NCBI GenBank assembly: GCA_017744365.1
Contig: JAGIBL010000001.1
Span: 558,001-622,000 of the forward strand
Length of the DNA: 64,000 nucleotides
DNA from: Nocardioidaceae bacterium
GTDB taxonomy: Bacteria; Actinomycetota; Actinomycetes; Propionibacteriales; Nocardioidaceae
Direction of reading: 5' to 3'
A model generated the notes under the pieces. It saw only the letters and a program-made list of their open reading frames with translations, ran no database searches and was not told the DNA's origin. This document shows, in pieces, positions 1,193 through 62,653 of the stretch (the first letter of the stretch is position 1; each line of letters opens with the position of its first letter). The position numbers and the translations under genes are program-made.

Positions 1193-1208
1193 GTTTTCCA
1201 CCGCTGGC

Positions 1209-1602: not shown

Positions 1603-1627
1603 GACGGCCCTGCGCCACCATGGGGAC

Positions 1628-34943: not shown

Positions 34944-34956
34944 GTAGCCTCTCTTT

Positions 34957-39544: not shown

Positions 39545-41010
39545 CGGGCACCTCCGGTGACGAGAGCGAGCGCGCGGCGGGTGGCCGCGGCGTTGGACAG
39601 GTGGACCTCGGCGCCGGCGGACGCCAGCGTCTCGGCCTGACGGGTCAGGCCCTGGGCATCGGCGGAGGTGCCGACGCAGGCGACCACGACGGGCACCTCC
39701 CGTACGGCGCGCGCGGCCACGATGGCCGGGGCCAGGTCGGCCGCCGGGTCCTCCTGGGCGCCGTAGCCGAGGACGACGTCGAGCAGGATCACCGCCGTGT
39801 CCGCGTCGGCCGCCACCTTCGCCAGGTGCTCGAGCCGCAGCGTCGGGTCGATCATCGGGTGCGCCCGGCCACGGGTGAGGCCGTCGTCGCCGAAGTCGAT
39901 CATCAGGTGTCCCGGGGCGAGCAGGCCGGCGTCGAGCGCGAGCTCGGGGGAGAGCGGGATGTTGCTGCGGATCGGGCCCAGCGTCTCGGCGGCGAGCAGC
40001 ATCGCCTCGTCGCAGAGGGTGCCGCCGACGAACAAGCCACGAAGTGCACTGCCCCCGGTGGCGGCGCCGGGCGAGCCCCAGGTCGGCCAGGCCGGCACCG
40101 TGACACCGAGGTCGGCAAGCAGGCCCTCGACCTGGCTGGTGATGTCCGGCTGTCCGGCGCCCAGCAGCGCGAACCGGACCGGGGTGCCGAGGCCGGCCGC
40201 GTACTTCTCCACCTCGGCGGCCACCTCGGGTGCCGGCGGCTTGGAGACCACCACGATGTGCTCGACGGAGGGGTCCGCGTCGAGCCGGTCCAGCGCGGTC
40301 TTCGTGGAGATGCCGCCGATGGCCGAGGACAGGTCGCGCCCGCCCACGCCGAGGGCTGCGGCCACGCCGACGCCGGCCGCGTCCAGCAGCGCGAGCACCT
40401 GCTGGCAGCCGGTGCCCGAGGCGGCCACGATGCCGACCCGGCCGGGGGTGACGGTGTTCGCGAAGCCGAGCCCGACGCCGCCGACGACCGCGGTGCCGCA
40501 GTCGGGTCCCATCACCAGCAGACCGCGGTCGCGGGCGATGTTCTTGAGGGCGAGCTCCTGCTCGACGGGCACGTTGTCGCTGAAGATCATCACGTCGGTG
40601 CCGGCGTCGAGGGCGTCCATCGCCTCGACCAGCGCGGAGGCACCGGGGACCGAGACGAGCGCGATGCCACCGCCGGCACGGCGCAGTGCCGAGGCCGTCG
40701 TACGTGGGGGCTCGGTGACCTCCTCGCCGCTGCTTCCGCGACGCGCGGCGGCCAGGGCGGCGTCGACCGCGGCCAGGGCGGCCGGGAGCGCGGACTCCCC
40801 CTCGAGCCGGAGCGCGACCACCATGTCGTTGGGAGAGGCGGCCGGCAGCGTGAAGCCCATGCCGGCGAGCACCTCGACGTTGAGCTCGGTCGCCATCGCG
40901 ACCTGTGCGGCGGTGACGCCGGGCGTCGCGGCGACGTCGCGGCTGACCTGCAGCAGGGCGACGCTGTCGGCGTACGCGCCGGGTCGGATCTCGACGTGCT
41001 CGTGCGTCAT
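39541..41010 (-). CDS. fdrA: FdrA-type acyl-CoA synthetase-like protein
   Basis: A 489-residue FdrA protein, distantly related to the succinyl-CoA synthetase alpha chain. It has MVVALRLEGESALPAALAAVDAAL near residue 62, DVMIFSDNVPVEQELALK near 138, VMGPDCGTAVVGGVGLGFANTVTPGRVGIVAASGTGCQQV near 163-202, and C-terminal HPMIDPTLRLEHL. E. coli FdrA is required for the oxalurate-phosphorolysing carbamoyltransferase. Both ends overlap neighbours by four bases. A carbamate kinase, the usual next enzyme, is encoded 20 kb away at 61704 rather than in this operon. Confidence 0.9.
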   Translation of the reverse strand: MTHEHVEIRPGAYADSVALLQVSRDVAATPGVTAAQVAMATELNVEVLAGMGFTLPAASPNDMVVALRLEGESALPAALAAVDAALAAARRGSSGEEVTEPPRTTASALRRAGGGIALVSVPGASALVEAMDALDAGTDVMIFSDNVPVEQELALKNIARDRGLLVMGPDCGTAVVGGVGLGFANTVTPGRVGIVAASGTGCQQVLALLDAAGVGVAAALGVGGRDLSSAIGGISTKTALDRLDADPSVEHIVVVSKPPAPEVAAEVEKYAAGLGTPVRFALLGAGQPDITSQVEGLLADLGVTVPAWPTWGSPGAATGGSALRGLFVGGTLCDEAMLLAAETLGPIRSNIPLSPELALDAGLLAPGHLMIDFGDDGLTRGRAHPMIDPTLRLEHLAKVAADADTAVILLDVVLGYGAQEDPAADLAPAIVAARAVREVPVVVACVGTSADAQGLTRQAETLASAGAEVHLSNAAATRRALALVTGGAR

Positions 41011-41771
41011 CGAGGGGTCCTTTCAGGGTTGCTGGAGAGGGCGAGGTGGGCGCCGAGGAGCATCCCGGCGCCGGAGGTGTGACCGATGGCGAGGAGGCGG
41101 CTGACGGCCTCGTCGGTGCCGCGATCCGCGGCGAGCGCGAGCAGCAGCGCCCGGAACTCCGGGATGGCCTCGCCCTCGATCGCGTCGGCGAGCAGGGTCG
41201 CGGAGAGTGTGGTGGTCCGGTGCGCGTGCTCCCGTACGGCGGCGGCGACCGCCTCGACGGGACGACCCAGCGCGAGACGGGTGACCAGCCAGCCGGAGAC
41301 GACGTCGTCGCCGACCGGGGTCAGCCCGTCGCCGCGGCCGAGGAGCTCCCTCACGGCGGCCGGGTCTCCGGCGGCGAGGGCGAGCAGCGCGGACCCGGGG
41401 AGCTGGTCGCGCACCTGGCCGAGGTCGTGCGTGGGCAGGGTCACCGGCTCGGTCAGGCGGGGGAGGTCGGTCGGGACCAGCCGGTCCACCGTGACGGCGA
41501 GCCCGGCGACGTACAGGGTGCCGTCGCGGAGCTCGGCCGGACTGCCGACGGCGACCGCCGGCAGGACGGGCAGCGCGGTCGCGATGGTGGCCGGGACCTG
41601 GACCGCTCCCCGGGCGGCCACACCGACGACCCGGTCACCGAACCGGGCGTAGATCGCCTGGGCACCCGCGTGCAGGACGTGGCCGGTACCGGTGAGCTCG
41701 CGCACCCGGCGCCGCAGCGCGGCGCTCCCGGCCCCGGGGACCGTGATGGGCGAAACAGTCGGGATCGGCAC
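41007..41771 (-). CDS. DUF2877 domain protein (YlbF-like)
   Basis: A 254-residue DUF2877 protein. The hallmark is LLGRGDGLTPVGDDVVSGWLVTR near residues 144-166, with LSATLLADAIEGEAIPEF near 192 and the Gly-rich end GHTSGAGMLLGAHLAL. It is the third component reported for the E. coli oxamate carbamoyltransferase. First gene of the operon; the start is GTG at 41771, 36 bases from the divergent regulator start, which leaves a minimal shared promoter. No clear ribosome site is visible. Confidence 0.83.
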   Translation of the reverse strand: MPIPTVSPITVPGAGSAALRRRVRELTGTGHVLHAGAQAIYARFGDRVVGVAARGAVQVPATIATALPVLPAVAVGSPAELRDGTLYVAGLAVTVDRLVPTDLPRLTEPVTLPTHDLGQVRDQLPGSALLALAAGDPAAVRELLGRGDGLTPVGDDVVSGWLVTRLALGRPVEAVAAAVREHAHRTTTLSATLLADAIEGEAIPEFRALLLALAADRGTDEAVSRLLAIGHTSGAGMLLGAHLALSSNPERTPR

Positions 41772-41807
41772 TCATCGGACGCTAACGGCTGGGCTATCGT
41801 GGATCGA

Positions 41808-43121
41808 ATGGTGAGCATTGCCAACGTAGGCGCGGAAGCGGGGCAAGAGTTGATAACCCCTGCCGCCGGTCCCGTCGCTGACCATGTCTCTGTGCATGTC
41901 GACGAGCTCGCCGAGGCCCTGGCCCAGCTGGTGCTGGCCGGTGCCGACCTGGGCGACCTCGTCGGGACGATCGGCGAGGTGCTGAAGGCCGAGGTCGCGG
42001 TCACCACGACCGACGGCCGCGAGCGGGCCGCGCGGGTCTCCGAGCCAATGCGTGCGCGGCTCACCCAGGCGGCCCTGTTCGACGAGACGGGCCGGCTCCG
42101 GGTGGAGTGGCTCGGTGACTGGTCCGGCGGGGAGAACCAGCCCGTCGAGGGCGCTCACATCCACCGGCTGCCGGTGGCGACGCCCGCGCAGGCGCTTGGC
42201 CACCTGGTCGCCGTCGTCGAGCGGGACCTGGACGAGATCGAGCTGACCGCGCTGCAGCGGGCCGCCACCGCGGTCGCGCTCTCCATCACCCGGGACCAGG
42301 CGGTCTCGGCGGTGGAGAACAAGTACCGCGGCGACTTCCTGCGTGACATCTTCCTCAACCGGGCGGGCTCCGAGGAGTTCGTCCGCGAGCACGTCGTCGG
42401 GTTCGGCTGGGAGATGAGCGGGCCGATGGTCGTGGTCGTGGCGCAGATCGACCCGGCCCCGCCGTACCAGCCGGCCGCCAGCGTCGAGGACCAGCGCGGC
42501 TGGCAGGAGCGGTTCGCCAACGCCTGGCGGCAGGTGGCCAGCGCCGTCGACCGGTCGATCCCGATCGCGGACTTCGGCTCCGAGGTGGTCGCGGTGCTGT
42601 CCTCGGAGGACCCGGAGGTGACCGCGACGACCGTACGGCGGATGGTGCACGCGGTCGCGGGGGACAAGGGCGGCGGGAGGCGTCCGTTCTCGGCCGGCGT
42701 GGGCCGGGTCGCCGCCGGTGTCGGTGGGCTGCCGGAGAGCTATGCGCAGGCCCGCCGTGCGGTCGAGGTCGGCCGCCGGGTCCGCGGGGGCAGCACCACC
42801 ACCTGGTTCGACGAGCTCGGCCTGCACCGGCTGATCGCGATGGTGCCGGACAACGACGAGCTCCGCGCCTTCGCGTACGACGTCCTCGGCGAGCTGGCGC
42901 AGCCCACCGAGGAGGCGGCGACCCTGCGGGAGACCCTCCAGGTGCTGCTGAACACGAACTTCAACGTGGCCGAGGCCGCGCGCACGCAGTTCTTCCACTA
43001 CAACACCATGCGGTACCGGGTCGGGAAGCTGGAGCGGCTCCTCGGGCCGATCGCCTCGGACCAGAACCTGCGGCTCGACGTCGCGGTGGCGTTGAAGGTG
43101 CTGGAGGTCGTGGAGGGCTGA
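41808..43121 (+). CDS. PucR/CdaR-type helix-turn-helix regulator
   Basis: A 437-residue regulator without the classical PucR N-terminal domain. The first 200 residues are GAF-like (LVGTIGEVLKAEVAVTTTDGRERA, PAQALGHLVAVVERDLDEIELTALQRAA), followed by a CdaR GGDEF-like region (FSAGVGRVAAGVGGLPESYAQARRAVEVGRRV) and the PucR HTH_30 (LRETLQVLLNTNFNVAEAARTQFFHYNTMRYRVGKLERLLG). It is divergent from DUF2877-fdrA-DUF1116 and lies upstream of the uracil permease operon, so it probably controls both. TATCGT at 41795-41800 lies seven bases before the ATG, suggesting a leaderless mRNA. Confidence 0.86.
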   Translation: MVSIANVGAEAGQELITPAAGPVADHVSVHVDELAEALAQLVLAGADLGDLVGTIGEVLKAEVAVTTTDGRERAARVSEPMRARLTQAALFDETGRLRVEWLGDWSGGENQPVEGAHIHRLPVATPAQALGHLVAVVERDLDEIELTALQRAATAVALSITRDQAVSAVENKYRGDFLRDIFLNRAGSEEFVREHVVGFGWEMSGPMVVVVAQIDPAPPYQPAASVEDQRGWQERFANAWRQVASAVDRSIPIADFGSEVVAVLSSEDPEVTATTVRRMVHAVAGDKGGGRRPFSAGVGRVAAGVGGLPESYAQARRAVEVGRRVRGGSTTTWFDELGLHRLIAMVPDNDELRAFAYDVLGELAQPTEEAATLRETLQVLLNTNFNVAEAARTQFFHYNTMRYRVGKLERLLGPIASDQNLRLDVAVALKVLEVVEG

Positions 43122-44214: not shown

Positions 44215-45576
44215 ATGTCGATGTTCACCTGGGAGGTCGTCGAACCGGCCCCCGGTCAGCCCGTAGGTCCCCGGCAGAGACTGCCCTGGGGCAAGACCAT
44301 CGGGCTCGGCGCTCAGCACGTCGTCGCGATGTTCGGAGCCACGTTTGTGTTCCCGCTCGTCATGGGGCTGGATCCGAACCTGGCGATCCTGTTTTCCGGC
44401 ATCTGCACGATCGGCTTCCTGATTGCTTGCAACAACCGCGTCCCGAGCTATCTCGGAACCAGTGCCTCGTTCGTCGCCGGCGTGGCGGCGATCCGCGCCC
44501 AGGGTGGTGATTCCGCGGATGTCACCGGCGCCATCCTGGTCGCCGGCCTGGTGCTCGCAGCCGTTGGCGTCCTGGTGCACTTCGCCGGCGCCGGCCTGAT
44601 CCACAAGGTGCTGCCGCCGGCGGTCACCGGTGCTGTGGTCATGCTGATCGGCTTCAACCTGGCCCCGGTCGTGGCTGGCATCTACTGGCCGCAGGACCAG
44701 TGGATCGCCCTCATCACGGCGGGCTTCATGGTGTGCGCCGCCGTACTGCTGCCTGGATTCTGGTCACGGATTGCCGTCTTCCTCGCGTTGATCTTCGGCT
44801 ACTTGATCTCGTGGATCAGCGACTTGCTCTTCGGCGACATTCACTCGATCGTCCCCAAGCTCGGCAAGGTCGTCGACCACTCCCGCGTCAGCTGGCACGA
44901 CGTCCGCAAGGCCGATTGGCTCGGCTTCCCGAGCGGTCACCTGGACGACGGCGTCTCGGTCGTCCACGGCCCGTCGTTCTCGATGACCTTCATCCTCCTC
45001 GTCCTCCCGGGCGTCATCGCGCTGATCGCGGAGAACACTGGTCACGTGAAGGCGGTCGCGGAGATGACCGGTGACGACCTGGACCCGTACATGGGCCGGG
45101 CCATCGCCGCGGACGGTGCCGCCACCGCGGTGGCCAGCCTCTTCGGCGGCTCGCCGACCACCACGTACGCCGAGAACATCGGCGTCATGGGTGCCACCAA
45201 GGTCTACTCGACGGCCGCGTACTACGTCGCCGGCGCGGTGGCGATCCTGCTCGGTCTCTGCCCGAAGTTCGGCGCGATCGTCAACGCCACCCCGGGCGGT
45301 GTGCTCGGCGGCATCACGGTCGTCCTCTACGGGATGATCGGCCTGGTGGGCGCGAAGATCTGGGTGGAGAACGGCGTCGACTTCGGCAACCCGGTCAACA
45401 TGGTCGGCCTCGCCGGCGGCCTGATCGCGGGCATCGGCGGCGTCACCCTCAAGATCACCGACGACTTCGAGCTCAGCGGCATCGCCCTGGGCACGATCCT
45501 CGTGATCGTCTTCTACCACCTGGTGAAGGGACGTCGCGTGGAGCTCGGCGCAGGTGAGGTGACCAAGAGGCTGTGA
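44215..45576 (+). CDS. Uracil permease (NCS2/UraA type)
   Basis: A 453-residue NCS2 transporter with about 14 helices. The substrate-binding segment FGGSPTTTYAENIGVMGATKVYS near residue 318 is of the UraA type (GENIG Glu and the NIGVM motif), not the QNVG form of xanthine permeases, so uracil or thymine is the likely substrate. GLGAQHVVAMFGATFVFPLVMGL (TM1) and the NNRVPSYLGTSASFVAGV block agree. GAGGAGGAG lies five bases before the ATG. It overlaps the following Mo-hydroxylase FAD subunit by GTGA, linking uracil import to that enzyme. Confidence 0.9.
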   Translation: MSMFTWEVVEPAPGQPVGPRQRLPWGKTIGLGAQHVVAMFGATFVFPLVMGLDPNLAILFSGICTIGFLIACNNRVPSYLGTSASFVAGVAAIRAQGGDSADVTGAILVAGLVLAAVGVLVHFAGAGLIHKVLPPAVTGAVVMLIGFNLAPVVAGIYWPQDQWIALITAGFMVCAAVLLPGFWSRIAVFLALIFGYLISWISDLLFGDIHSIVPKLGKVVDHSRVSWHDVRKADWLGFPSGHLDDGVSVVHGPSFSMTFILLVLPGVIALIAENTGHVKAVAEMTGDDLDPYMGRAIAADGAATAVASLFGGSPTTTYAENIGVMGATKVYSTAAYYVAGAVAILLGLCPKFGAIVNATPGGVLGGITVVLYGMIGLVGAKIWVENGVDFGNPVNMVGLAGGLIAGIGGVTLKITDDFELSGIALGTILVIVFYHLVKGRRVELGAGEVTKRL

Positions 45577-46418
45577 AGCCCGCACCCTTCGACTACGTCC
45601 GGCCGGGGTCCCTGGGGGAAGCCCTCCAGGCCCTGGCCGGGCACGCCGAGGCCAAGGTCCTCGCCGGCGGCCAGAGCCTCGTGCCCTTGCTGTCGATGCG
45701 CCTGGCCGCGCCGGCGGTGCTGGTCGACATCAACGCCCTGCCTGACCTCGACCACGTCCGGGTCGACGCGGCCGGTGTCCGGATCGGTGCACTCGCGCGG
45801 CACGCGCGGGTGCTCGCCGACCCGGACGTCGCCCGGGTCCAGCCGCTGGTGACCCAGGCCCTGGCCAACGTCGCGCACGCCACTATCCGCAACCGCGGCA
45901 CCACGGTCGGCTCACTGGTGCACGCCGATGCCGCCGCCGAGATGCCGATGATCCTGCGGCTCCTTGAGGGCTCGGTCGACGTCGTGGGTCCGAGCGGCCG
46001 GCGCACCATCGCCGCCGAGGACCTGTACGTCGGACCGCTCGAATCGAGCCTGCACCACGACGAGATCGCGGTCGAAGCGTTCTTCCCGGCGCTGCCGGCC
46101 AACACCGGTGTCGCCTTCGCGGAGATCGCTCGCCGGCACGGGGACTACGCGATGGTCGGTGTCGCGGCGGTCGTCACGGTCGAGGGCGACCAGATCACGT
46201 CCGCGAAGGCGGGCTACCTGAGTGTCTCGGACGTCCCGGTCGTGGTGGACCTGACCGAGACGCTGCAGCAGGGAGGGGACCCGGGCGAGACAGCCCTGGC
46301 GCTCCTCGAACCCGAGACCGACATCCATGCCACCGCCGAGTACCGCGCCCACCTGGTCAGGGTGCTGACCGCGCGGGTGCTGACCGCGGCCGTCGAGAAC
46401 GCGCAGGAGAGGGTATGA
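45573..46418 (+). CDS. Molybdenum hydroxylase FAD-binding subunit (CoxM-like)
   Basis: A 281-residue FAD subunit of the xanthine dehydrogenase/CO dehydrogenase family. FAD motifs: KVLAGGQSLVPLLSMRLAAP near residue 28 and ATIRNRGTTVGSLVHADAAAEMP near 104 (pyrophosphate-binding TIGGN-like loop), then RRHGDYAMVGVAA. It passes electrons from the 2Fe-2S subunit to its acceptor. It is second in the operon, with GTGA and ATGA overlaps on each side. Confidence 0.92.
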   Translation: MKPAPFDYVRPGSLGEALQALAGHAEAKVLAGGQSLVPLLSMRLAAPAVLVDINALPDLDHVRVDAAGVRIGALARHARVLADPDVARVQPLVTQALANVAHATIRNRGTTVGSLVHADAAAEMPMILRLLEGSVDVVGPSGRRTIAAEDLYVGPLESSLHHDEIAVEAFFPALPANTGVAFAEIARRHGDYAMVGVAAVVTVEGDQITSAKAGYLSVSDVPVVVDLTETLQQGGDPGETALALLEPETDIHATAEYRAHLVRVLTARVLTAAVENAQERV

Positions 46419-46909
46419 CCGAGAAGACCCACGAGCTCCGGCTGACCGTCAACGGCGTCACCCACGAGCTGACCGTGCCCGCCCGGCGACTGCTCTCCGA
46501 CGCGCTGCGCCACGACCTCGGCCTCACCGGCACCCACGTCGGCTGCGAGCACGGCGTCTGCGGCGCCTGCACGGTGCTGGTCGACGGCAAGCCGATGCGC
46601 TCCTGCCTGATGTTCGCGGTCTCTGCGGTCGATGTCGAGATCACGACCGTCGAGGGTCTCGCTCACCAGGACGGCTCGCTCGGCCCGGTGCAGCAGGCGT
46701 TCCGCGAGTGCCACGGGCTGCAGTGCGGCTTCTGCACCCCCGGCTTCCTCACCACGATCACTGCCGGCATCGAGGAGAACCCCGACCCCACCGAGGACGA
46801 GGCCCGCGACATGATCGCCGGCAACCTCTGCCGGTGCACCGGCTACCAGAACATCGTCAAGGCCGTCTGCCGCGCCGCCGAGCTCAAGGCGCAGGGAGCA
46901 GACCGATGA
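46415..46909 (+). CDS. Molybdenum hydroxylase 2Fe-2S subunit (CoxS-like)
   Basis: A 164-residue iron-sulfur subunit. The plant-type cluster ligands are in THVGCEHGVCGACTVLVDGKPMRSC (about residues 40-64), the second cluster in LQCGFCTPGFL and LCRCTGYQNIVKAV (about 102-145). It carries electrons from the Mo site to FAD. Typical length for the family. ATGA overlaps with both neighbours. Confidence 0.94.
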   Translation: MTEKTHELRLTVNGVTHELTVPARRLLSDALRHDLGLTGTHVGCEHGVCGACTVLVDGKPMRSCLMFAVSAVDVEITTVEGLAHQDGSLGPVQQAFRECHGLQCGFCTPGFLTTITAGIEENPDPTEDEARDMIAGNLCRCTGYQNIVKAVCRAAELKAQGADR

Positions 46910-49296
46910 CGACCAAGCTGATGGGCACCAAGGTCCAGCGCGTCGAGGACGACCGTCTGGTCCGCGGCACCGGCCGCTACGTCGACGACGTCGCCCCGGA
47001 CGCCCTTCACGTCGCCGTTCTGCGCAGCCCGCACGCGCACGCGCGCATCCTGTCCATCGACGTGGAGGCCGTCCTCGACATCGAGGGCGTGCACGCCGTC
47101 TGGACGTACGAGGATCTCGACGGCGCCATGGCCGAGCCGCTGCCGCTGCTGATCCCGCACCCGACCCTGACCCACGGCCGGACCCAGTACGCCCTGGCCA
47201 AGGACGAGGTGAACTACGTCGGCGAGGCCATCGCGATGGTCGTCGCCGACAACCGCTACCTCGCCGAGGACGCGCTCGCGAGCATCGTCGTCGACTACGA
47301 GCTGCTGCCCGCCGTGGTCGGCATCGAGACCGCGCGCGCGGCTGAGCGGCTCGTCCACGACGACGTGCCCGGCAACGTGGCCGCGCGGATGGAGCAGTCC
47401 AACGGCGACGCGGCGGCCGCCATCGCGGCCGCGCCGCACACGCTGTCGCTGGACCTCGCGATCGAGCGCAGTGCCTGCATGCCGATGGAGGGCCGCGGCG
47501 TCGTCGCCAAGTGGGACGCCGACAACGGCCGTCTCCAGGTCTGGTCCTCGACGCAGACCTCCACCGGCGTCCGTGCCGCGGTGGCCGCCAAGCTGGGCCT
47601 GGACCTGCTCAAGGTCGACGTGATCACCCCCGACGTCGGCGGTGGCTTCGGCGTGAAGATCAACCACCCCTGGCCCGAGGAGGTGCTGGTCCCGCTGGCC
47701 GCGATGCGGCTCGGCCGGCCGGTGAAGTTCACCGAGGACCGGCGCGAGCACTTCATCTCCTCCGCGCACGAGCGCGCCCAGCTGCACCACGTCGAGGTCG
47801 GCTTCGACGACGACGGCCGGGTGCTCGGGCTCGACGTGCGGTTCTGGCACGACCACGGTGCCTACACGCCGTACGGGCTGATCGTCCCGATCATCACCTC
47901 CACCCAGCTGCTCGGGCCTTACAAGCCGGGCGCCTACCACGTGCAGTTCGACTCGCTCTACACCAACACCGTGATCGTCACGCCGTACCGCGGCGCCGGC
48001 CGGCCGCAGGGCTGCTTCGTCATGGAGCGGACCATGGACGCGATCGCCGCGTCGCTGGGCAAGGACCGGGCCGAGGTGCGGGCGGTCAACTTCATCCAGC
48101 CCGACGAGTTCCCCTACGACCACGGTCTGATCTTCCAGGACGGCCGCGAGCTCGAGTACGACTCCGGCGACTACCCGGCGATGCTGACCAAGATCAAGGA
48201 CCTGGTCGGCTGGGACGAGTTCGAGCAGTTCCGCGCCGAGATGGCCGGGCAGGGGCGTCGCGTCGGCATCGGGCTGGCCTGCTACGTCGAGGGCACCGGC
48301 GTCGGTCCCTACGAAGGCGCGCACGTGCACATCGAGACCTCCGGCAAGGTCAAGGTCGCCACCGGCCTGACCTCCCAGGGGCAGGGCCACCAGACCGCGT
48401 TCGCGCAGATCGTCGCCGACGAGCTCGGCGTGCGCTTCGAGGACGTCGAGGTCACCACCGGCGACACCCGCCGGATGCCGTACGCCGTCGGCACGTTCGC
48501 CTCGCGCGCGGCGGTGATGAGCGGCTCGGCGATCCACAAGGCCGCCAAGAAGGCCAAGGAGAAGGCGCTGCGGATCGCGGCCGAGGCGCTGGAGGCGGAC
48601 GTCGAGGACCTGGAGATCGCCGACGGCGTGGTCAGCGTCCGCGGCACCGACGCGAGCATCCCGCTCGGCACCGTCGCGGTGCTCTCCAACCCGCTGCGCT
48701 ACGCCTTCGACGAGGCGTCCAAGGCAGCCACCCAGTTCAGCGTCGGCGACCCCGGCAAGCCGCCGGTGGCCGAGGGCGACGAGCCCGGCCTGGAGGGCAA
48801 GGACTTCTACTCCCCGCCGCGCTCGACCTTCGCCTCCGGCATGCACGCGGTCATCGTGGAGACCGACCCGGACACGTGCGAGATCAAGATCCTCAAGTAC
48901 GCCGTGGTGCACGACTGCGGCCACCTCATCAACCCGATGATCGTCGAGGGCCAGATCCACGGCGGCGTCGCGCAGGGCGTCGGCGGCGCTCTCTACGAGC
49001 GGATGGCCTACGACGAGTCCGGGCAGCTGCTCAACGCCTCGTTCATGGACTTCCTGATGCCCTACGTCACCGAGGTGCCCACGAGCATCGACATCGACCA
49101 CCTGGAGACGCCGTCGCCGCTGAACCCGCTCGGCATCAAGGGTGCGGGCGAGGCCGGCGTGATCCCGGGTTCGGCCGCGTTCGCCGCGGCCATCGAGGAC
49201 GCCGAGCGACTGTCCATCACCGCCATGCCCATCTCGCCGTCGGAGCTGTTCGCGCTCCGGCAGGCGGCTTCGACGAACGCAGGGGAGACCCCATGA
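46906..49296 (+). CDS. Molybdenum hydroxylase large subunit (CoxL form II-like; proposed uracil dehydrogenase)
   Basis: A 796-residue molybdopterin subunit. It begins GTKVQRVEDDRLVRGTGRYVDD, has DVGGGFGVKINHPWPEE (cofactor dithiolene contact), the active-site loop PYRGAGRPQG near residue 360 and the base-catalyst KGAGEAGVIPGSAAF near 748. True Cu-containing CO dehydrogenase has AYRCSFR in that loop, so this is a form II hydroxylase of an organic or heterocyclic substrate. Coupling to a uracil permease and nearby barbiturase points to uracil/thymine hydroxylation to (methyl)barbiturate (inference). Purine or other heterocycle substrates are not excluded. Confidence 0.88.
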   Translation: MTTKLMGTKVQRVEDDRLVRGTGRYVDDVAPDALHVAVLRSPHAHARILSIDVEAVLDIEGVHAVWTYEDLDGAMAEPLPLLIPHPTLTHGRTQYALAKDEVNYVGEAIAMVVADNRYLAEDALASIVVDYELLPAVVGIETARAAERLVHDDVPGNVAARMEQSNGDAAAAIAAAPHTLSLDLAIERSACMPMEGRGVVAKWDADNGRLQVWSSTQTSTGVRAAVAAKLGLDLLKVDVITPDVGGGFGVKINHPWPEEVLVPLAAMRLGRPVKFTEDRREHFISSAHERAQLHHVEVGFDDDGRVLGLDVRFWHDHGAYTPYGLIVPIITSTQLLGPYKPGAYHVQFDSLYTNTVIVTPYRGAGRPQGCFVMERTMDAIAASLGKDRAEVRAVNFIQPDEFPYDHGLIFQDGRELEYDSGDYPAMLTKIKDLVGWDEFEQFRAEMAGQGRRVGIGLACYVEGTGVGPYEGAHVHIETSGKVKVATGLTSQGQGHQTAFAQIVADELGVRFEDVEVTTGDTRRMPYAVGTFASRAAVMSGSAIHKAAKKAKEKALRIAAEALEADVEDLEIADGVVSVRGTDASIPLGTVAVLSNPLRYAFDEASKAATQFSVGDPGKPPVAEGDEPGLEGKDFYSPPRSTFASGMHAVIVETDPDTCEIKILKYAVVHDCGHLINPMIVEGQIHGGVAQGVGGALYERMAYDESGQLLNASFMDFLMPYVTEVPTSIDIDHLETPSPLNPLGIKGAGEAGVIPGSAAFAAAIEDAERLSITAMPISPSELFALRQAASTNAGETP

Positions 49297-49910
49297 AGAT
49301 CAGCGGCCAGAACACCATCAACGCACCCGTCGACAAGGTCTGGGAGGCCCTGCTCGACCCGCGCGTGCTGGTGGCCACCATCCCCGGCTGCGAGCAGCTC
49401 GAGGCGACCGGTGAGAACGCCTACGCGATGACCGTCAGCGCCGGGGTCGCGGCGATCCGCGGCACCTACTCCGGCTCGTGCACGCTGAGCGACCTGAAGG
49501 AGCACGAGTCGCTGACCATGCACCTCAAGGGCGCCGGGGCGCCGGGCACCATCGACGCGACCGTCGCCGTGCGCTTCGCGGGCGAAGGTGACGAGACGTC
49601 GCTGGGCTACGACGCCGACGCGGTCGTCGGCGGGATGATCGGCGGGGTCGGCCAGCGGATGCTCACCAGCGTCTCGCGCCGGATGGCCGCGGAGTTCTTC
49701 GGCAACGTCGAGAAGGTCATCGCCGGCGGCATCCCGGCGGCTGCTGCTCCGGCCGCGGTGTCGGCCGAGGGCGCGCCGGTCTACGCCGCGGCGCCGAAGC
49801 CGTCGCGGGTGCCGGTGGGCGACAGCTCGTTCCTGGCCGGAGTCGCCGCGGGTGGCGCGCTGGTCCTGGCCGGCGTGATCGTCGGCGGGATCTTGGGACG
49901 TCGTCGATGA
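49293..49910 (+). CDS. CoxG-type SRPBCC protein
   Basis: A 205-residue protein with the CoxG/SRPBCC fold: MKISGQNTINAPVDKVWEALLDPRVLVATIPGCEQLEATGENAYAM, then GTYSGSC and DADAVVGGMIGGVGQRML. An Ala/Pro linker and a C-terminal membrane helix (FLAGVAAGGALVLAGVIVGGILGRRR) would anchor it. In CO-oxidising bacteria CoxG tethers the Mo enzyme to the membrane near the quinone pool. Overlaps both neighbours by ATGA, fifth gene in the operon. Confidence 0.9.
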   Translation: MKISGQNTINAPVDKVWEALLDPRVLVATIPGCEQLEATGENAYAMTVSAGVAAIRGTYSGSCTLSDLKEHESLTMHLKGAGAPGTIDATVAVRFAGEGDETSLGYDADAVVGGMIGGVGQRMLTSVSRRMAAEFFGNVEKVIAGGIPAAAAPAAVSAEGAPVYAAAPKPSRVPVGDSSFLAGVAAGGALVLAGVIVGGILGRRR

Positions 49911-51289
49911 CGACCGTCGACTCCACCGCGCGCGACCAGGCCGACGCCGTACGGCGCAAGGAGATCTCGGCGCGCGAGCTGATGGACCTGCACCTGGACC
50001 GGATCGCCGAGCGGAACCCGCGGCTCAACGCGATCGTCTCGCTCGATCCCGAGCGCGCCCGGGCCGGCGCGGCCGCGGCCGACGAGGCGCTCGCGCGGGG
50101 TGCGCAGGTCGGCCCGCTGCACGGGCTGCCGTTCGCGTTCAAGGACACCCACGCCGTGAAGGGCTGGCGCACGACGTACGGGTCGACGCTGTTCGCCGAC
50201 CACGTGCCGGACCACGACGAGCTGCTCGTCGAGCGCGTCCGCAACGCGGGCGCGGTGACGATCGGCAAGACCAACGTGCCCGAGTTCGCGGCCGGGTCGC
50301 ACACCTTCAACAAGGTCTTCGGCACCACCCTCAACCCGGTCGACCCGACGCGCTCGGCGGGTGGGTCCAGCGGGGGAGCGGCGTGCGCGCTCGCGGCCGG
50401 GATGGTGCCGCTCGCGGACGGCTCCGACATGGGCGGCTCGCTGCGCAACCCGGCCTCGTTCTGCGGGGTGGTCGGGATGCGGCCGAGCCTGGGCCGGGTC
50501 CCCGAGTGGCCGCTGTACAACCAGTGGGAGACCACCTCGGTCGGCGGCCCGATGGCCCGCAACGTCGGCGACCTGGCGCTGCTGCTCAGCGTGCTCGCCG
50601 GCCCGGACCCGCGCGCGCCGCAAGCGCTGGGCGACCCGGGCTGGTACTTCGCCGATCCCCGGCCGGCCGCGCTGGAGGGACTGCGGGTCGCGCTGAGCGT
50701 GGACCTCGGCGGCGCCTTCGACGTCGACCACGAGGTGGCCGGTGTGGTCGAGTCGGCGGCCGCGCTGCTCGGCAAGGCCGGGGCCCAGGTCGAGGACCGG
50801 CACCCGGACCTGAGCCTGGCCGAGGACACGTTCCGGACCCTGCGCGCGTGGCACTTCCAGGCCAAGCTGGGCCGGATGCTCGCGGCCAACCCGGACGCGT
50901 TCAAGCCCTCGCTGGCCGACAACATCCGCGCGGGGGAGTCGCTCACCGGTGCCGACGTGGCCCGGGCCTACACCCAGCGGACCGCGCTGTCGGAGACCAT
51001 GCGCAGCTTCTTCACGTCGTACGACGTGCTGGTGCTGCCCGTCTCGCAGGTGCCCCCGTTCCCGGCGGACCAGGAGTTCCCGACGGCCATCAACGGAAGA
51101 CCGATGGCGACGTACCTGGACTGGATGCGCTCGGCGTACTTCATCACCGTCACCGGCTGCCCGGCGATCTCGCTGCCTGCCGGAACGACGAAGGACGGCC
51201 TCCCGGTGGGCGTGCAGATCGTCACCGCGCACGGCGCCGACAAGCGCCTGCTGGAGATCGCCGCCGCCTTCGAAGCGCTGGCCAGCTGA
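49907..51289 (+). CDS. Amidase signature enzyme (proposed malonamate or ureidomalonate hydrolase)
   Basis: A 460-residue amidase-signature protein. The Ser-cisSer-Lys triad is visible: Lys79 in LPFAFKD, cis-Ser in AGGSSGG (about 154) and nucleophile Ser178 in SDMGGSLRNPA. It cuts a small amide. In this operon it could hydrolyse malonamate (as malonamidase E2, same family) or ureidomalonate (as ureidomalonase); both are pathway intermediates after barbituric acid. The ATGA overlap with coxG makes it part of the uracil permease-Mo hydroxylase operon. The substrate is inference. Confidence 0.87.
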   Translation: MTTVDSTARDQADAVRRKEISARELMDLHLDRIAERNPRLNAIVSLDPERARAGAAAADEALARGAQVGPLHGLPFAFKDTHAVKGWRTTYGSTLFADHVPDHDELLVERVRNAGAVTIGKTNVPEFAAGSHTFNKVFGTTLNPVDPTRSAGGSSGGAACALAAGMVPLADGSDMGGSLRNPASFCGVVGMRPSLGRVPEWPLYNQWETTSVGGPMARNVGDLALLLSVLAGPDPRAPQALGDPGWYFADPRPAALEGLRVALSVDLGGAFDVDHEVAGVVESAAALLGKAGAQVEDRHPDLSLAEDTFRTLRAWHFQAKLGRMLAANPDAFKPSLADNIRAGESLTGADVARAYTQRTALSETMRSFFTSYDVLVLPVSQVPPFPADQEFPTAINGRPMATYLDWMRSAYFITVTGCPAISLPAGTTKDGLPVGVQIVTAHGADKRLLEIAAAFEALAS

Positions 51290-51297
51290 AGCTCGCC

Positions 51298-51431
51298 GAG
51301 GCGGCTCAGCTGAAACTCCCCAGCCCCCTGAGGCGTCGCAGATGAAACTTTCATCTGCGACGCCTCAGCGCGTTTCTAGCTTTCATCTCGGACGCCTCGG
51401 CGGGGCTGAGCTTTTCATCTGGGACGCCTCG
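51298..51431. repeat. Cluster of inverted and direct repeats after the amidase gene
   Basis: CTGAGGCGTCGCAGATGAAA (51328-51347) and its exact inverse TTTCATCTGCGACGCCTCAG (51349-51368) form a 20-base-arm palindrome around one C. Two further degenerate copies of the right arm follow at 51381-51400 and 51413-51431, and a degenerate left-arm copy (GAGGCGGCTCAGCTGAAA) lies before it near 51299-51316. It may act as a terminator; its design mirrors the unrelated cluster at 38018. Confidence 0.8.
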
Positions 51432-51471
51432 CGGGTGGGCCTAGCAACATCTGCCGGAGATCTTCAAGGCA

Positions 51472-51524: not shown

Positions 51525-53594
51525 ATGACAAGGCGGATCAGGATCGGCATCGACACCGGAGGCACGTTCACCGACGTCGTCGCCTTCGACGAGGACAGCG
51601 GCGCGGTGGTCACCACCAAGACGCCGAGCACTCCGGCGAACCCGGCGGACGGGTTCCTCGCCGGCATCGACAAGGTGCTCGGCATCGCGGAGGCGGACTT
51701 CGCGGACGTGGTGGCGGTCAGCCACGGCACCACGGTCGCGACCAACCAGCTCCTCGAGGGCAAGGTGGACGCGCTCGGCTTCGTCACCACCGAGGGCTAC
51801 GAGGCGATGCTCGAGATCGCCCGGCAGTCGGTGCCGGACGGCTACGGCAACTCCTACTTCTGGGTGAAGCCGGACCGGATCGTTCCCCGCGACCTGGTCA
51901 AGGGCGTGGGCGGCCGGCTCGACTTCACCGGCGCGGAGATCCGTCCCTTCGACGAGGACGGCGCCCGCGCGGTCGCCCGCTGGTTCAAGGCCAAGGGCAT
52001 CGACACTCTCGGCGTCTGCTTCCTGCACGCGTACGCCAACCCGGCGCACGAGGAGCGGATGCGGGACATCATCGCCGAGGAGCACCCGGACGCGGTCGTC
52101 TCCATCTCCAGCGAGGTGCTGCGCGAGTACCGCGAGTACGAGCGCTCGATGACCACGCTGGTCGACGCCGCCGTGAAGCCGAAGCTCTCCCGCTACGTCA
52201 ACAACATCAAGGACCGGCTCGCGCAGGGCAGCGGCCGGACGATCCCGTTCTACGTGATGAAGTCGAACGGCGGTGTGCTCTCGGCCGACGAGGTCGTGCA
52301 CCAGCCGATTACCACGGTCCTCTCCGGTCCCGCCGCGGGCGCGCTCGGCGCCGCGCTGATCGCGAAGGTGGCCGGCTTCGACAAGGTGCTCACCTCCGAC
52401 GGCGGCGGCACCTCGACCGACGTCTCGGTCGTCATCGACGGCGAGCCGACGCTGACCACCGAGGGCAGCGTGGGCGTCTACCCGTCGAAGATCCCGATGA
52501 TCGACGTGGTGACCGTCGGTGCCGGCGGCGGCTCGATCGCCTGGCTCTCGCCCGAGGGCACCCTCAAGGTCGGCCCGCACTCGGCCGGCGCGGACCCGGG
52601 CCCGATCTGCTACCGCAAGGGCGGGAGCGAGGTCACCATCACCGACGCGCACGTCTTCCTGGGCCGGATCCCTCCGCACCTGCTCGGTGGCGAGATCCCG
52701 CTCGACGTGGACGCGGCGACCGCGGCGATCCAGCAGCTGGCCGGCAAGCTGGGCATCAGCCCCGAGGCCTGCGCCAACGGGATCCTCGAGATCTCTGCCT
52801 GGAACCAGGCCAACGCGCTGCGCCAGGTCACCGTCAAGCGCGGCCTCGACGTCCGCGACTTCACGCTGACCACCTTCGGCGGCTCGGGCTCGCTGCTGCT
52901 GTGCCGGCTCATGGACATCCTCGGCATCCCGACCGTGCTGGTCCCGCCGAACCCCGGCAACGTCTCCGCCTTCGGGCTGCTCACCGTGGACGTGAAGAAC
53001 GACTACGTGCAGACCCACGTCGCGCTCCAGTCCTCGCTGGACCCGGCGGTGCTGCAGACCGAGTACGACGCGCTCACCGCGCGTGCCGCCGCGGCGCTCG
53101 CCAAGGAGGGCTTCACGGAGGCCGACCACGTCTTCGTGCGGACCGCCGACGTGCGCTACTTCGGCCAGGCCTTCGAGGTCCGGGTCGCGGTGCCGGACGG
53201 TCCGGTCACCGACGAGACGCTGCGTCTCGTGGCCGACCGGTTCCACGCCGAGCACCGGGTCCTCTACGGCTACGACTTCTCCGGCGACGACTCCCAGCAG
53301 GTCGAGGTGGTGAACCTGCGCGTCTCCGGCGTCGGCCCGATCAAGCGGCCGGAGATCCTGAAGACGGCCGGGGGCTCGGCCCCGCAGCCCACCGGCACCC
53401 GCCGGATCTGCTTCGAGGCCGAGGCCGGGTACGTCGAGACGCCGATCTACTGGCGCGCCGACCTGCCCGCGGGCCACGTGCTCACCGGCCCGGTCATCGT
53501 CGAGGAGTTCGGCTCGACCGTGCCCATCCACCCCGGCTTCACCGCCCGGGTCGACGACTACGCCAACATCGTGGTGACGAGGAGCAACGCATGA
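51525..53594 (+). CDS. Hydantoinase/oxoprolinase family protein, HyuA subunit
   Basis: A 689-residue HyuA protein. It begins RIRIGIDTGGTFTDVVAFDEDSG (phosphate-binding actin-like fold), with AVSHGTTVATNQLLEGK near residue 64, TSDGGGTSTDVSVVIDGEP near 288 and YFGQAFEVRV near 545. With HyuB it forms ATP-dependent N-methylhydantoinase- or acetophenone/acetone carboxylase-type enzymes. Here it may handle a cyclic or ureido intermediate of base catabolism (inference). No ribosome site is seen. Overlaps hyuB by ATGA. Confidence 0.9.
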   Translation: MTRRIRIGIDTGGTFTDVVAFDEDSGAVVTTKTPSTPANPADGFLAGIDKVLGIAEADFADVVAVSHGTTVATNQLLEGKVDALGFVTTEGYEAMLEIARQSVPDGYGNSYFWVKPDRIVPRDLVKGVGGRLDFTGAEIRPFDEDGARAVARWFKAKGIDTLGVCFLHAYANPAHEERMRDIIAEEHPDAVVSISSEVLREYREYERSMTTLVDAAVKPKLSRYVNNIKDRLAQGSGRTIPFYVMKSNGGVLSADEVVHQPITTVLSGPAAGALGAALIAKVAGFDKVLTSDGGGTSTDVSVVIDGEPTLTTEGSVGVYPSKIPMIDVVTVGAGGGSIAWLSPEGTLKVGPHSAGADPGPICYRKGGSEVTITDAHVFLGRIPPHLLGGEIPLDVDAATAAIQQLAGKLGISPEACANGILEISAWNQANALRQVTVKRGLDVRDFTLTTFGGSGSLLLCRLMDILGIPTVLVPPNPGNVSAFGLLTVDVKNDYVQTHVALQSSLDPAVLQTEYDALTARAAAALAKEGFTEADHVFVRTADVRYFGQAFEVRVAVPDGPVTDETLRLVADRFHAEHRVLYGYDFSGDDSQQVEVVNLRVSGVGPIKRPEILKTAGGSAPQPTGTRRICFEAEAGYVETPIYWRADLPAGHVLTGPVIVEEFGSTVPIHPGFTARVDDYANIVVTRSNA

Positions 53595-55528
53595 GTGTGA
53601 ACACCGAGAGCCGTCGCGCTCCCACCCAGTTCCCCTTCGAGTCGCTGACGCCGGACGCCGGACGTAGCGCCGACCCCGTGCTCGTCGAGATCGTGCAGGG
53701 TTCCCTGGCCGCGGTCGAGCACGAGGTCGAGACCGCCATCGCGCGGACCTCGCGCAGCCCGATGATCCGCGACGCCCACGACTTCCGCGCGGGCATCCAC
53801 GACCGCAAGCTGCGCAAGCTCACCGGCCGGTCCTACTCGGCGCTGGTGCACCCGGTCGCGCGGGACTTCCCGATCGACGAGATGAACGAGGGCGACGTCT
53901 TCTTCCACAACGACGTCTACCTCTCCGAGGGCGGCATCGGCCACCTGCCCGATCTCTGCGTGACCGTGCCCGTGTTCGCGGGTCCGGCGGACGACCGTCG
54001 CGTGGTCGCGTTCGTGCAGGCCTTCGGGCACCACGACGACATCGGCGGCGCGGTGCCGGGCTCGATGCCCTCGCACGCCACCACCGTCTTCGAGGAGGGC
54101 CTCGCGGTCCCGCCGATCAAGCTCTGGGACGCCGGCGTGCCCAACCGCGCCGCGCTCACGATCATGACCCGCAACTCCCGGATGCCGGAGTCGCTGGCCG
54201 CCGACCTCGACGCCGAGTGCTCGGCCTGCCTCATGGGCGCGCGCCGGCTCGGCGAGCTCTTCGACCGCTACGGCATCGAGACCGTCGAGGCCTGCTTCGA
54301 CGCGGTCATCGAGCGGTCCACGCAGACCTACCGGCGCGAGATCCTCTCCAAGATCCCGGTCGGTACCTGGACCTGGGAGGACTACGCCGAGCACGACGGC
54401 GTCGACGACCCGAAGCTGCACACCCAGCGGATCACCCTGACGCGGACGGCTGCCGACGACCCCGAGGGGGAGCGGCTGGTCCTGGACTTCGGCGGCACCA
54501 GCCCGCAGGCCAAGGGGCCGATCAACCACTGCGGCGACTACAGCGACGGCGTCTTCCTCAAGAAGTGGCTTGCGCCGATCCTGCGCAACCTCGCCGACAC
54601 CCCCGAGCGAATGGCCGAGCTCGACGTCAACGAGGGCGTGGTGCCGCTGATCGAGATGCGCTTCCCGCCCCCGGGCACGCTGCTCACCCCGGTGTTCCCG
54701 GCGCCGACCAACGCCCGCACGTTCGTGATCCTGCGGCTGCTCGGCGTGCTGGCCGGCGTGCTCGCCAAGGCGGTCGACGGGCGGATGCCGGCCGACCAGG
54801 AGACCATCCGCTACACGGGCGTGTACGGCGAGGACCTCGATGGTCGCTCGTACCTGATGCGCGAGGTGCTCGGCGGCGGCTCCGGCGGGCGCTACTACGC
54901 CGACGGCGAGGACACCATCCACGTGGTGCCGGACTCGCGGAACCTGCCGACCGAGTTCACCGAGTCGCGGTTCCCGTTCGTGGTCGAGTCGCTGTCCCTG
55001 GCCAAGGACTCAGGCGGGGCCGGCCAGTTCCGCGGCGGCCTGGGCTACGAGAAGCACATCCGGATGCTCAAGGACGCGCATTTCATGTCCATCGCGGACC
55101 GCTCGATCCTCGCCTGCTGGGGTGTCAAGGGCGGCAAGGCCGGCAAGCCGTTCGAGGTCGTCATCGACCCGGGCGGGTCGAACGAGCGTGAGGTCGACGC
55201 GCTGGCGGATGCGGAGGCGGTCCAGGCCGGCGAGGTGATCCGGATCCGGACGACGGGCGGCGGCGGCTGGGGGAACCCGCTCGAGCGCGATCCGGCTCTC
55301 GTCGTACGGGACGTGGTGTGGGAGAAGGTCTCCGCCGAGGCCGCGCTCGCCGACTACGGCGTGGTGCTGACCGGCTCGCTGGAGGACGACTCGCTCGCGT
55401 ACGACGCCGAGGCCACCGCCGCCGAGCGGGCCGCCCGGCCGGCTCCGGACGAGGCGTTCTTCGACCGGGGGCCGGGCTACGGCGTGCTGGCCGGGGGAGC
55501 CACGTCGGCGAGCGTCGACCACCTCTGA
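53591..55528 (+). CDS. Hydantoinase B/oxoprolinase family protein, HyuB subunit
   Basis: A 645-residue HyuB protein. Typical blocks are DPVLVEIVQGSLAAVEHEVETAIARTSRSPMIRDAHDFRAGIHD, EGDVFFHNDVYLSEGGIGHLPDLCVTVPVF, VQAFGHHDDIGGAVPGSMPSHATTVFEEGL (metal-binding His/Asp) and GGGGWGNPLERDP near the end. It acts with HyuA. The C-terminus overlaps the next start (TGATG). Confidence 0.9.
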   Translation: MSVNTESRRAPTQFPFESLTPDAGRSADPVLVEIVQGSLAAVEHEVETAIARTSRSPMIRDAHDFRAGIHDRKLRKLTGRSYSALVHPVARDFPIDEMNEGDVFFHNDVYLSEGGIGHLPDLCVTVPVFAGPADDRRVVAFVQAFGHHDDIGGAVPGSMPSHATTVFEEGLAVPPIKLWDAGVPNRAALTIMTRNSRMPESLAADLDAECSACLMGARRLGELFDRYGIETVEACFDAVIERSTQTYRREILSKIPVGTWTWEDYAEHDGVDDPKLHTQRITLTRTAADDPEGERLVLDFGGTSPQAKGPINHCGDYSDGVFLKKWLAPILRNLADTPERMAELDVNEGVVPLIEMRFPPPGTLLTPVFPAPTNARTFVILRLLGVLAGVLAKAVDGRMPADQETIRYTGVYGEDLDGRSYLMREVLGGGSGGRYYADGEDTIHVVPDSRNLPTEFTESRFPFVVESLSLAKDSGGAGQFRGGLGYEKHIRMLKDAHFMSIADRSILACWGVKGGKAGKPFEVVIDPGGSNEREVDALADAEAVQAGEVIRIRTTGGGGWGNPLERDPALVVRDVVWEKVSAEAALADYGVVLTGSLEDDSLAYDAEATAAERAARPAPDEAFFDRGPGYGVLAGGATSASVDHL

Positions 55529-56265
55529 TGAAGGTCGCGATCGTCGGCGGGACCGGCAAGACCGGTCGTGCCGTGGGCGCGGCGCTGGCCCAGGCGGGTG
55601 TAGACGCACACCCCCTGGGCCGGGCCGCGTTCGACGACCTGGACACGGCCTTCGCGGGGGTCGACGCGGTCCACCTGATCGCGCCGAACCTGCACCCCGA
55701 CGAGCCCGGGTACGTCGGCCAGGTGCTGGCCGCGATGGGCGTCGCCGGTGTGCGCCGGCTCAGCTACCACTCGGTGGCGTCGCCGTACGCGCCGTCGATG
55801 CCGCACCACTTGGGCAAGGCGGTCTCCGAGGACCTGATCCGGCGCTCCGGACTGGCCTGGACGATCCTGCAGCCCTGCGCCTACGTGCAGAACCTGCTCC
55901 CCGCGCTGGCCCAGGCTCTCGAACGGGGTGAGCTCGCGGTGCCCTACTCCGTGGGCACGCCCTTCGGCCTGGTCGACCTCGACGACGTCGGCGAGGCGAC
56001 GGCAGTGGTGCTCACCGAGCCGGGTCATGTCGGGGCGACGTACGAGCTCGGCGGGCCGGCGCTGGTCAGCGTCGCGGACGTCGCGGCCGCTGCCGGTGTC
56101 CGGGCACGGCGCACCGAGCCCGAGGACGGCACCCACCCGTGGCTGCTGGCGATGTTCGCCTACTACGACGAGCACGGCCTGCCCACCGGCTCGGTGCCGC
56201 TGACGTCCCTGCTCGGCCGGCCCCCGACCTCGGTCGAGGACGTACTGGCGCGCGAGCACGGGTGA
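55528..56265 (+). CDS. NmrA-like NAD(P)-binding protein
   Basis: A 245-residue Rossmann protein with the nucleotide loop MKVAIVGGTGKTGRAVGAAL and the NmrA-like features AVHLIAPNLHPDEPGYVGQVLAAM and WTILQPCAYVQNLLPALAQ. NmrA/TMR-like members can be redox sensors or reductases; the canonical Tyr-Lys catalytic pair is not evident. It is last in the hyuA-hyuB operon with a TGATG overlap. Role in the pathway unknown. Confidence 0.82.
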   Translation: MKVAIVGGTGKTGRAVGAALAQAGVDAHPLGRAAFDDLDTAFAGVDAVHLIAPNLHPDEPGYVGQVLAAMGVAGVRRLSYHSVASPYAPSMPHHLGKAVSEDLIRRSGLAWTILQPCAYVQNLLPALAQALERGELAVPYSVGTPFGLVDLDDVGEATAVVLTEPGHVGATYELGGPALVSVADVAAAAGVRARRTEPEDGTHPWLLAMFAYYDEHGLPTGSVPLTSLLGRPPTSVEDVLAREHG

Positions 56266-62651: not shown

Positions 62652-62653
62652 CC

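Follow-up and report, generated by a model that had tools for sequence, protein, structure and literature searches.

The window analysed here is a stretch of 64,000 nucleotides from a soil bacterium of the Nocardioidaceae (assembly GCA_017744365.1, 4.76 Mb in 15 contigs; contig JAGIBL010000001.1, positions 558,001 to 622,000), and all coordinates are counted from its first base. At 44215-51289 it carries an operon in which a nucleobase permease gene is followed by those for the flavin (FAD), iron-sulfur and molybdopterin subunits of a molybdenum hydroxylase. These proteins are very probably, at roughly 85%, a uracil dehydrogenase that would open an oxidative pyrimidine pathway. The support is genomic, and thymine is perhaps oxidised as well. 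We take the corresponding activity, uracil/thymine dehydrogenase, to be EC 1.17.99.4. The original prediction had named the operon as a candidate for this activity, and two results strengthen it: the same window holds a putative barbiturase orthologue, and the molybdopterin subunit and this type of barbiturase agree in presence or absence in 391 of 394 genomes.

The six genes of the operon lie on the forward strand, at the positions originally predicted, and are linked by five successive start/stop overlaps of four bases. They encode, in order, an NCS2 nucleobase permease of the UraA/RutG type (44215-45576; PF00860, 230 bits), the FAD subunit (45573-46418; PF00941 and PF03450), the [2Fe-2S] subunit (46415-46909; PF01799 and PF00111), the molybdopterin subunit (46906-49296), a CoxG-like accessory protein (49293-49910; PF06240, 88 bits) and an amidase-signature amidase (49907-51289; PF01425, 374 bits). 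The overlap between the permease stop and the GTG start of the FAD subunit, which had been taken as a sign of translational coupling, is found at 45573-45576; the others are at 46415-46418 (FAD/iron-sulfur), 46906-46909 (iron-sulfur/molybdopterin), 49293-49296 (molybdopterin/CoxG) and 49907-49910 (CoxG/amidase). Among 80 named relatives the permease/FAD overlap of four bases occurs in 50, while 23 show another spacing, two have no nearby start and for five the permease or FAD gene is absent from the stretch examined. The coupling recurs among relatives and is not a one-off. As to the extent of the system, the predicted range holds for the six genes up to the amidase, but the conserved set reaches further: it also includes hyuA and hyuB (to 55528), an AllFGH-like set (38114-41771) and a carbamate kinase with the barbiturase (61704-63760).

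The three subunits match the xanthine oxidase family of molybdenum hydroxylases through PF20256, PF02738, PF01315, PF00941, PF01799 and PF00111. The molybdopterin subunit, which is the candidate catalytic subunit, passes the model NF040766 with 1527 bits (cutoff 950) and fails TIGR02416 (470 bits, cutoff 991). Its best named relatives are found in Nocardioides and Pimelobacter with 89-91% identity, and the nearest solved structure is quinoline 2-oxidoreductase (PDB 1t3q, 467 bits). The motif around the catalytic glutamate is GIKGAGEAG. We compared 110 loci of this subunit and 92 permease loci, both drawn from named and unnamed sets in which the same species may appear twice. Of the 110 loci, 104 match the pattern G[IV]KG.GE.G; in the other six it was not found. 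When aligned to the carbon monoxide dehydrogenase 1n5w, the subunit shows PYRGAGR in place of AYRCSFR, as had been predicted, and this motif, which is without the cysteine of carbon monoxide dehydrogenase, is present in all 110 loci, the window's own copy included. The AYXCSFR loop with its copper-binding cysteine, which marks the aerobic carbon monoxide dehydrogenases, is thus missing. NCBI names NF040766 'aerobic carbon-monoxide dehydrogenase large subunit', which is probably wrong for this protein. The same name probably misleads the annotation of many actinobacterial genomes.

The strongest indication of the substrate comes from a gene that the original prediction had missed. Around 13 kb downstream of the molybdopterin gene, at 62654-63760 on the forward strand, lies a barbiturase gene (PF09663, 475 bits). 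Its product scores 656 bits to the solved barbiturase 5hwe and at most 312 bits to the cyanuric acid hydrolases, and it is 83.4% identical to 5hwe compared to only 48.4% for the cyanuric acid hydrolase 6bum. The orthologue of this protein thus appears to be the solved barbiturase and not the cyanuric acid hydrolase, although the NCBI model for cyanuric acid amidohydrolase is also passed (469 bits, cutoff 360). According to PMC4051656, Arg188 of cyanuric acid hydrolase is replaced by Gln in the barbiturase subgroup. We found Asn at this position in both the window barbiturase and 5hwe, and Arg in 6bum. Asn also occurs in five of the eight divergent family members examined, and hence the residue does not discriminate barbiturases. 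The column of Ser226 was left unused as it is shifted in the divergent rows of the alignment. A carbamate kinase gene (61704-62651, forward strand; NF009007, 305 bits, cutoff 266; TIGR00746, 336 bits, below the cutoff of 358) directly precedes the barbiturase. For the 30 best of 84 barbiturase matches, two of which lay on incomplete stretches, a kinase homologue was found directly upstream in 23 of the 28 testable loci. The genome also holds a second, divergent ring-opening amidohydrolase (locus L242, 8819-9910, on contig G000:C12), which is 38% identical to the window barbiturase and adjoins genes that by eye resemble those for an aldehyde dehydrogenase and an ABC transporter.

To see how far these genes travel together, we searched 394 genomes of the class and 14 control genomes with profiles for NF040766 (E-value limit 1e-200), PF09663 (1e-40) and AllG (1e-40). 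Within the class NF040766 was found in 77 genomes (76 over the cutoff), PF09663 in 81 and AllG in 88. Second matches to NF040766 below the cutoff were dropped in two genomes (G051 and G183), and a below-cutoff fragment at a contig edge was kept in one (G119). Neither NF040766 nor PF09663 occurred in any of the 14 controls, and AllG occurred in one, Escherichia coli. The molybdopterin subunit and PF09663 were found together in 75 genomes, the former alone in two (G023 and G266), the latter alone in six and neither in 311. The PF09663 proteins are split by a clear gap: identity to 5hwe is 71.7% or more for those of 76 genomes and below 40% for eight further proteins. Counting only the former, barbiturase type, we obtained 75 genomes with both, two with the molybdopterin subunit only, one with the barbiturase only (G020) and 316 with neither. 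Both genes lie on one contig in 49 of the 75 genomes, and in 44 they are at most 30 kb apart. In genus g3 the barbiturase is present in all 11 genomes with the molybdopterin subunit and in none of the eight listed genomes without it, so the pair appears to be acquired or lost as one even within a genus. AllG shows a similar association: 74 genomes have it together with the molybdopterin subunit, three have the subunit only (G014, G206 and G266) and 14 AllG only; the two share a contig in 65 of the 74 genomes and are at most 15 kb apart in 58. Among 72,556 plasmid records, barbiturase matches at 60-80% identity were limited to Embleya and Nonomuraea, which also gave the two best records for the molybdopterin subunit. 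The third, with 60.6% identity, is plasmid pRZP2 of Rhodococcus sp. ZPP, where the molybdenum operon comes with an amidase and HyuAB. Homologues on Serratia and Variovorax plasmids are more distant (43-46% identity), and the 18 kb around the Serratia homologue carry no annotated genes of the pathway.

The permease provides another indication for uracil. It scores 341 bits with the RutG model (cutoff 759), 245 with that of uracil permease (cutoff 477) and 144 with that of xanthine permease, and among solved structures 185 bits to uracil permease compared to 45 for the uric acid-xanthine permease. The ENIGVM motif on which the prediction had relied is present: AENIGVM and AENTGH of the permease align with GENIGVM and AEHVGH of UraA, positions which we take to be Glu290 and Glu241/His245. 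TTYAENIGVM was found in all 92 permease loci, the AENTGH-type pattern was matched in 70 and not found in 22. A look for the motifs in the second NCS2 permease of the genome returned nothing. The window also offers a possible internal source of uracil. On the reverse strand an NCS1-type permease gene of the cytosine/purine/uracil/allantoin family (30849-32282; PF02133, 171 bits) overlaps by four bases with a gene for a yeast-type cytosine deaminase (32279-32737), which scores 141 bits to PDB 1ysd/1uaq compared to 63 for the best tRNA deaminase. This predicted deaminase could feed uracil to the pathway. A search of the 10-kb flanks in the 60 full-length named relatives did not find the NCS1 permease, which we therefore do not count as a conserved part. 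Overall, the window holds candidate genes for a route from cytosine to uracil, barbiturate, ureidomalonate and beyond.

In the pathway that we propose, uracil would enter through the co-translated permease, or may arise from cytosine taken up by the NCS1 permease and deaminated. The molybdenum hydroxylase would then oxidise uracil at C6 to barbiturate; hydroxylation next to a ring nitrogen is the usual chemistry of this superfamily. Uracil as the substrate is supported by the combination of an enzyme for the expected product with a UraA/RutG-type importer. The barbiturase would open the ring to give ureidomalonate, and owing to the 83% identity with the solved enzyme this is the safest of the reactions that we infer. 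For the steps beyond we consider it most likely that an AllFGH-like complex converts ureidomalonate and phosphate to malonamate and carbamoyl phosphate, that the carbamate kinase turns the latter into ATP, NH3 and CO2, and that an amidase would cleave malonamate to malonate and NH3. The corresponding genes lie on the reverse strand upstream of the operon: an AllG-like carbamoyltransferase subunit (38114-39544; PF06545, 322 bits), an AllF/FdrA-like subunit (39541-41010; NF004760, 388 bits, below the cutoff of 433; FdrA, PDB 3dmy, 228 bits) and an AllH-like subunit (41007-41771; PF11392, 83.6 bits). The set for an oxamic transcarbamylase is thus represented, with AllG and AllH over their cutoffs, AllF/FdrA below and the carbamate kinase in addition.

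Four observations favour this ending: the presence of AllG in 74 of the 77 genomes with the molybdopterin subunit, the kinase gene beside the barbiturase, the scarcity of urea-degrading enzymes and a second AllFGH-like set. Of the 77 genomes, 30 have urease alpha at an E-value of 1e-30 or better, and seven have urea carboxylase at 1e-200 or better, one of these under the cutoff. At these thresholds 44 genomes have neither, that of the window included, and the same holds for 43 of the 74 that carry AllG. The second AllF/AllG/AllH-like set lies with its own carbamate kinase elsewhere in the genome (locus L248, G000:C8:255000-272000), so the window set looks dedicated and need not serve oxalurate. 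Beside this second set lie an amidase-like gene and a gene whose product by eye resembles an isochorismatase. Furthermore, malonamate would need an amidase, which fits the finding that this place of the operon is taken by either of two amidases unrelated to each other. The amidase-signature enzyme, a candidate malonamate amidohydrolase or ureidomalonase, is near the molybdopterin gene in 17 of the 77 genomes, all of the window's own family, and in two named Pseudonocardia (L095 and L118). An unrelated CN-hydrolase lies near the molybdopterin or barbiturase gene in 30 other genomes; the two were never seen nearby in one genome, and in the remaining 30 both are missing from the vicinity.

The main competitor of this ending leaves uracil oxidation as it is. 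After the same first two steps the amidase, or the CN-hydrolase, would act as the ureidomalonase of the textbook and release malonate and urea, with AllFGH and the kinase serving another substrate such as oxalurate. Ureidomalonase forming urea and malonate is the step given in PMC3758960, and oxalurate is what the AllFGH of E. coli converts with phosphate, reversibly, to oxamate and carbamoyl phosphate, as stated in PMC11326118. It also agrees with urea release that urease is present in 30 of the 77 genomes, that in Haloechinothrix (L125) an amidase adjoins the barbiturase and the 22 kb examined contain no AllFG, and that genome G206, which is without AllG, has a urease as well as an amidase of 59% identity at another place. 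Set against this are the near-constant company of AllG, the 44 genomes without a match to either urea-degrading enzyme and the separate AllFGH-like set of this genome. We regard the release of urea as possible, at perhaps half the weight of the energy-conserving form. The latter, in which AllFGH-like phosphorolysis, ATP from the barbiturase-linked kinase and alternative amidases would avoid urea, and HyuAB would serve a methylated ring or replace an absent barbiturase, has about even odds as a whole.

HyuAB follows the amidase on the forward strand, with a HyuA-like subunit at 51525-53594 (PF01968, 312 bits), a candidate ring opener for 5-methylbarbiturate, and a HyuB-like subunit at 53597-55528 (PF02538, 460 bits). 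HyuA was found in 70 of the 77 genomes (E-value 1e-250 or better), in 63 of them within 40 kb of the molybdopterin or barbiturase gene on the contig. Genome G266 has the molybdenum operon with HyuAB, and at the limits used no PF09663 or AllG match anywhere. As this genome and the examined stretch of the Rhodococcus plasmid share the arrangement with HyuAB and no barbiturase, HyuAB may open the ring itself, and we would guess that this is perhaps the ring of 5-methylbarbiturate derived from thymine. The gap between the amidase and hyuA (51325-51435) is rich in repeats, with three units at a spacing of 32 bases. It contains a palindrome of 41 bases with arms of 20 bases at 51328-51368, perhaps a terminator or a REP-like element.

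Several observations weigh against uracil oxidation by this enzyme. For the pairing with barbiturase the Fisher test gives p ~2e-77, but this value ignores phylogeny, which enters only through the comparison within genus g3. Genomes G023 (80% complete) and G266 (100% complete) have the molybdopterin subunit and no PF09663 match, and G020 has the barbiturase without a detected molybdopterin subunit, yet AllG-, CoxG- and HyuAB-like genes are present. On pRZP2 no barbiturase is annotated in the 42 kb around the molybdenum operon, and none of at least 60% identity from this plasmid was found in the plasmid collection. This Rhodococcus variant may pass its product to another route or act on a different substrate, and more generally molybdenum operons with HyuAB but without barbiturase may instead point to a different substrate. 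The permease stays below the equivalog cutoffs of both RutG and uracil permease, and the molybdopterin subunit reaches 648 bits with the model for glyceraldehyde dehydrogenase alpha (cutoff 790). Finally, one dihydropyrimidinase/hydantoinase-like gene over the cutoff is encoded elsewhere in the genome, so a reductive uracil route may coexist. RutA was not found over its cutoff in the genome (best 62 bits, cutoff 498).

A rival reading is a hydroxylase for another nitrogen heterocycle such as xanthine, hypoxanthine, nicotinate or a hydantoin, with the ring opener acting on an analogue of barbiturate. The closeness to quinoline 2-oxidoreductase would agree with this, and the regulators of PucR type, like AllFGH, are reminiscent of purine pathways. 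We nevertheless consider it improbable given a ring opener 83% identical to the solved barbiturase, its company in 75 of the 77 genomes and a permease that resembles UraA much more closely than it does the uric acid-xanthine permease. Even less probable is an aldehyde oxidoreductase within the same pathway. All three subunits do score to glyceraldehyde dehydrogenase models, below the cutoffs, but the barbiturate route expects no aldehyde and we saw no other candidate for uracil oxidation in the conserved cluster. That the enzyme is an aerobic carbon monoxide dehydrogenase, as the name of NF040766, the score of 1527 bits and the CoxG/D/E-like genes alongside would have it, is hardly credible with the cysteine of the AYXCSFR position absent from all 110 loci, less than half of the TIGR02416 cutoff reached and a context of pyrimidine catabolism.

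Several of the remaining genes around the candidate uracil dehydrogenase recur as well. Maturation genes had been predicted at 34401-38013, and we found there, on the forward strand and with family matches below the curated cutoffs, genes for MobA-like (34401-34943), CoxD/MoxR-like ATPase (34957-35829), CoxE-like VWA (35826-36896) and XdhC-like (36889-38013) proteins that would serve molybdenum cofactor maturation. Such genes also adjoin the cluster in several other genomes. A PucR/CdaR-like regulator gene (32866-34404, forward strand; PmfR-like NCBIfam model, 60 bits, below the cutoff) precedes them. A second, PucR-type regulator (41772-43121, forward strand; PF17853 and PF13556) is divergent from allHFG; of 60 named stretches with a length of at least 22 kb, 54 contain a homologue. 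Behind hyuB, on the forward strand, follows an NmrA-like NAD(P)-binding protein (55528-56265; PF05368, 39 bits). When the gene neighbourhoods of relatives in other families are mapped, a set recurs, though not always in full: maturation genes, allG/allF on the opposite strand, pucR, permease, FAD, iron-sulfur and molybdopterin subunits, coxG, amidase, hyuA, hyuB, nmrA, a CoA transferase, a carboxyltransferase-like gene, carbamate kinase and barbiturase. In Pimelobacter simplex ATCC 6946 a single 22-kb stretch runs from allGFH (reverse strand) through pucR, permease, FAD, iron-sulfur and molybdopterin subunits, coxG, amidase, hyuA, hyuB and nmrA to carbamate kinase and barbiturase, and two Nocardioides likewise hold allG to barbiturase within 22 kb (locus L069 for Pimelobacter, L066 and L070 for Nocardioides). 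The CoA transferase and carboxyltransferase-like genes, beyond the window in our genome, might by a guess lead from malonate to acetyl-CoA; the carboxyltransferase-like gene is present in 57 of the 77 genomes, though within 40 kb of the molybdopterin or barbiturase gene in only 26. A variant order is shared by pRZP2 and G266:C35, namely amidase, CoA transferase, xdhC, pucR, permease, FAD, iron-sulfur and molybdopterin subunits, coxG, hyuA, hyuB and nmrA, and in the stretches examined barbiturase and AllFG were not seen. Near the start of the window (482-3077) three genes by eye resemble, from their translations, a 5-oxoprolinase set of PxpA/B/C type.

Rhodococcus erythropolis JCM 3132, which PMC3961730 equates with CCM2595, reportedly degrades pyrimidines oxidatively through uracil/thymine dehydrogenase, barbiturase and ureidomalonase. 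The window route resembles this pathway in its barbiturase and its context of pyrimidine uptake, with uracil to barbiturate as the missing step, and differs from the known form in the accompanying AllFGH-like set and carbamate kinase. With form II CoxL (NF040766, TIGR02416) the enzyme shares three subunits, CoxG/D/E-like helpers and a full-length NF040766 match; unlike carbon monoxide dehydrogenase it has no copper-ligand cysteine and is linked to barbiturase, not to carbon monoxide metabolism. Quinoline 2-oxidoreductase, the closest solved large subunit, hydroxylates a carbon beside the ring nitrogen of a substrate other than the proposed uracil, and its context differs. All three subunit families of E. 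coli AllFGH are present together with a counterpart of the carbamate kinase AllK, but here they are linked to barbiturase and the proposed substrate, ureidomalonate, is one CH2 longer than oxalurate. The permease is RutG-like as in the Rut pathway. The genome differs from the Rut and reductive (Pyd) pathways in that it has no RutA match over the cutoff and its one dihydropyrimidinase/hydantoinase-like gene over the cutoff lies elsewhere.

As noted in PMC3758960, it was in the 1950s that the oxidation of pyrimidines to barbiturate was first reported as a route. The original prediction held that few genes are assigned to it, and in line with this our literature search, mostly outside subscription journals, turned up no paper that assigns genes to uracil dehydrogenase or connects AllFGH with barbiturate. 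The string 'barbitur' is absent from the main text of a paper on nitrogen starvation in M. smegmatis (PMC4222082), and PMC6794299 describes this organism as being without a form II enzyme. For the enzyme, genes in a known superfamily are in all likelihood assigned here for the first time, and with the phosphorolytic ending a known pathway would gain a new variant. A definite and widespread gene set, present in 77 of 394 genomes of the class, is publicly annotated as carbon monoxide dehydrogenase. If our reading is true, one clade of form II 'carbon monoxide dehydrogenases' gains a function, counts of carbon monoxide oxidation that rely on these names have to be corrected, and the nitrogen of pyrimidines would be recoverable by a phosphorolytic, ATP-yielding step without urease.

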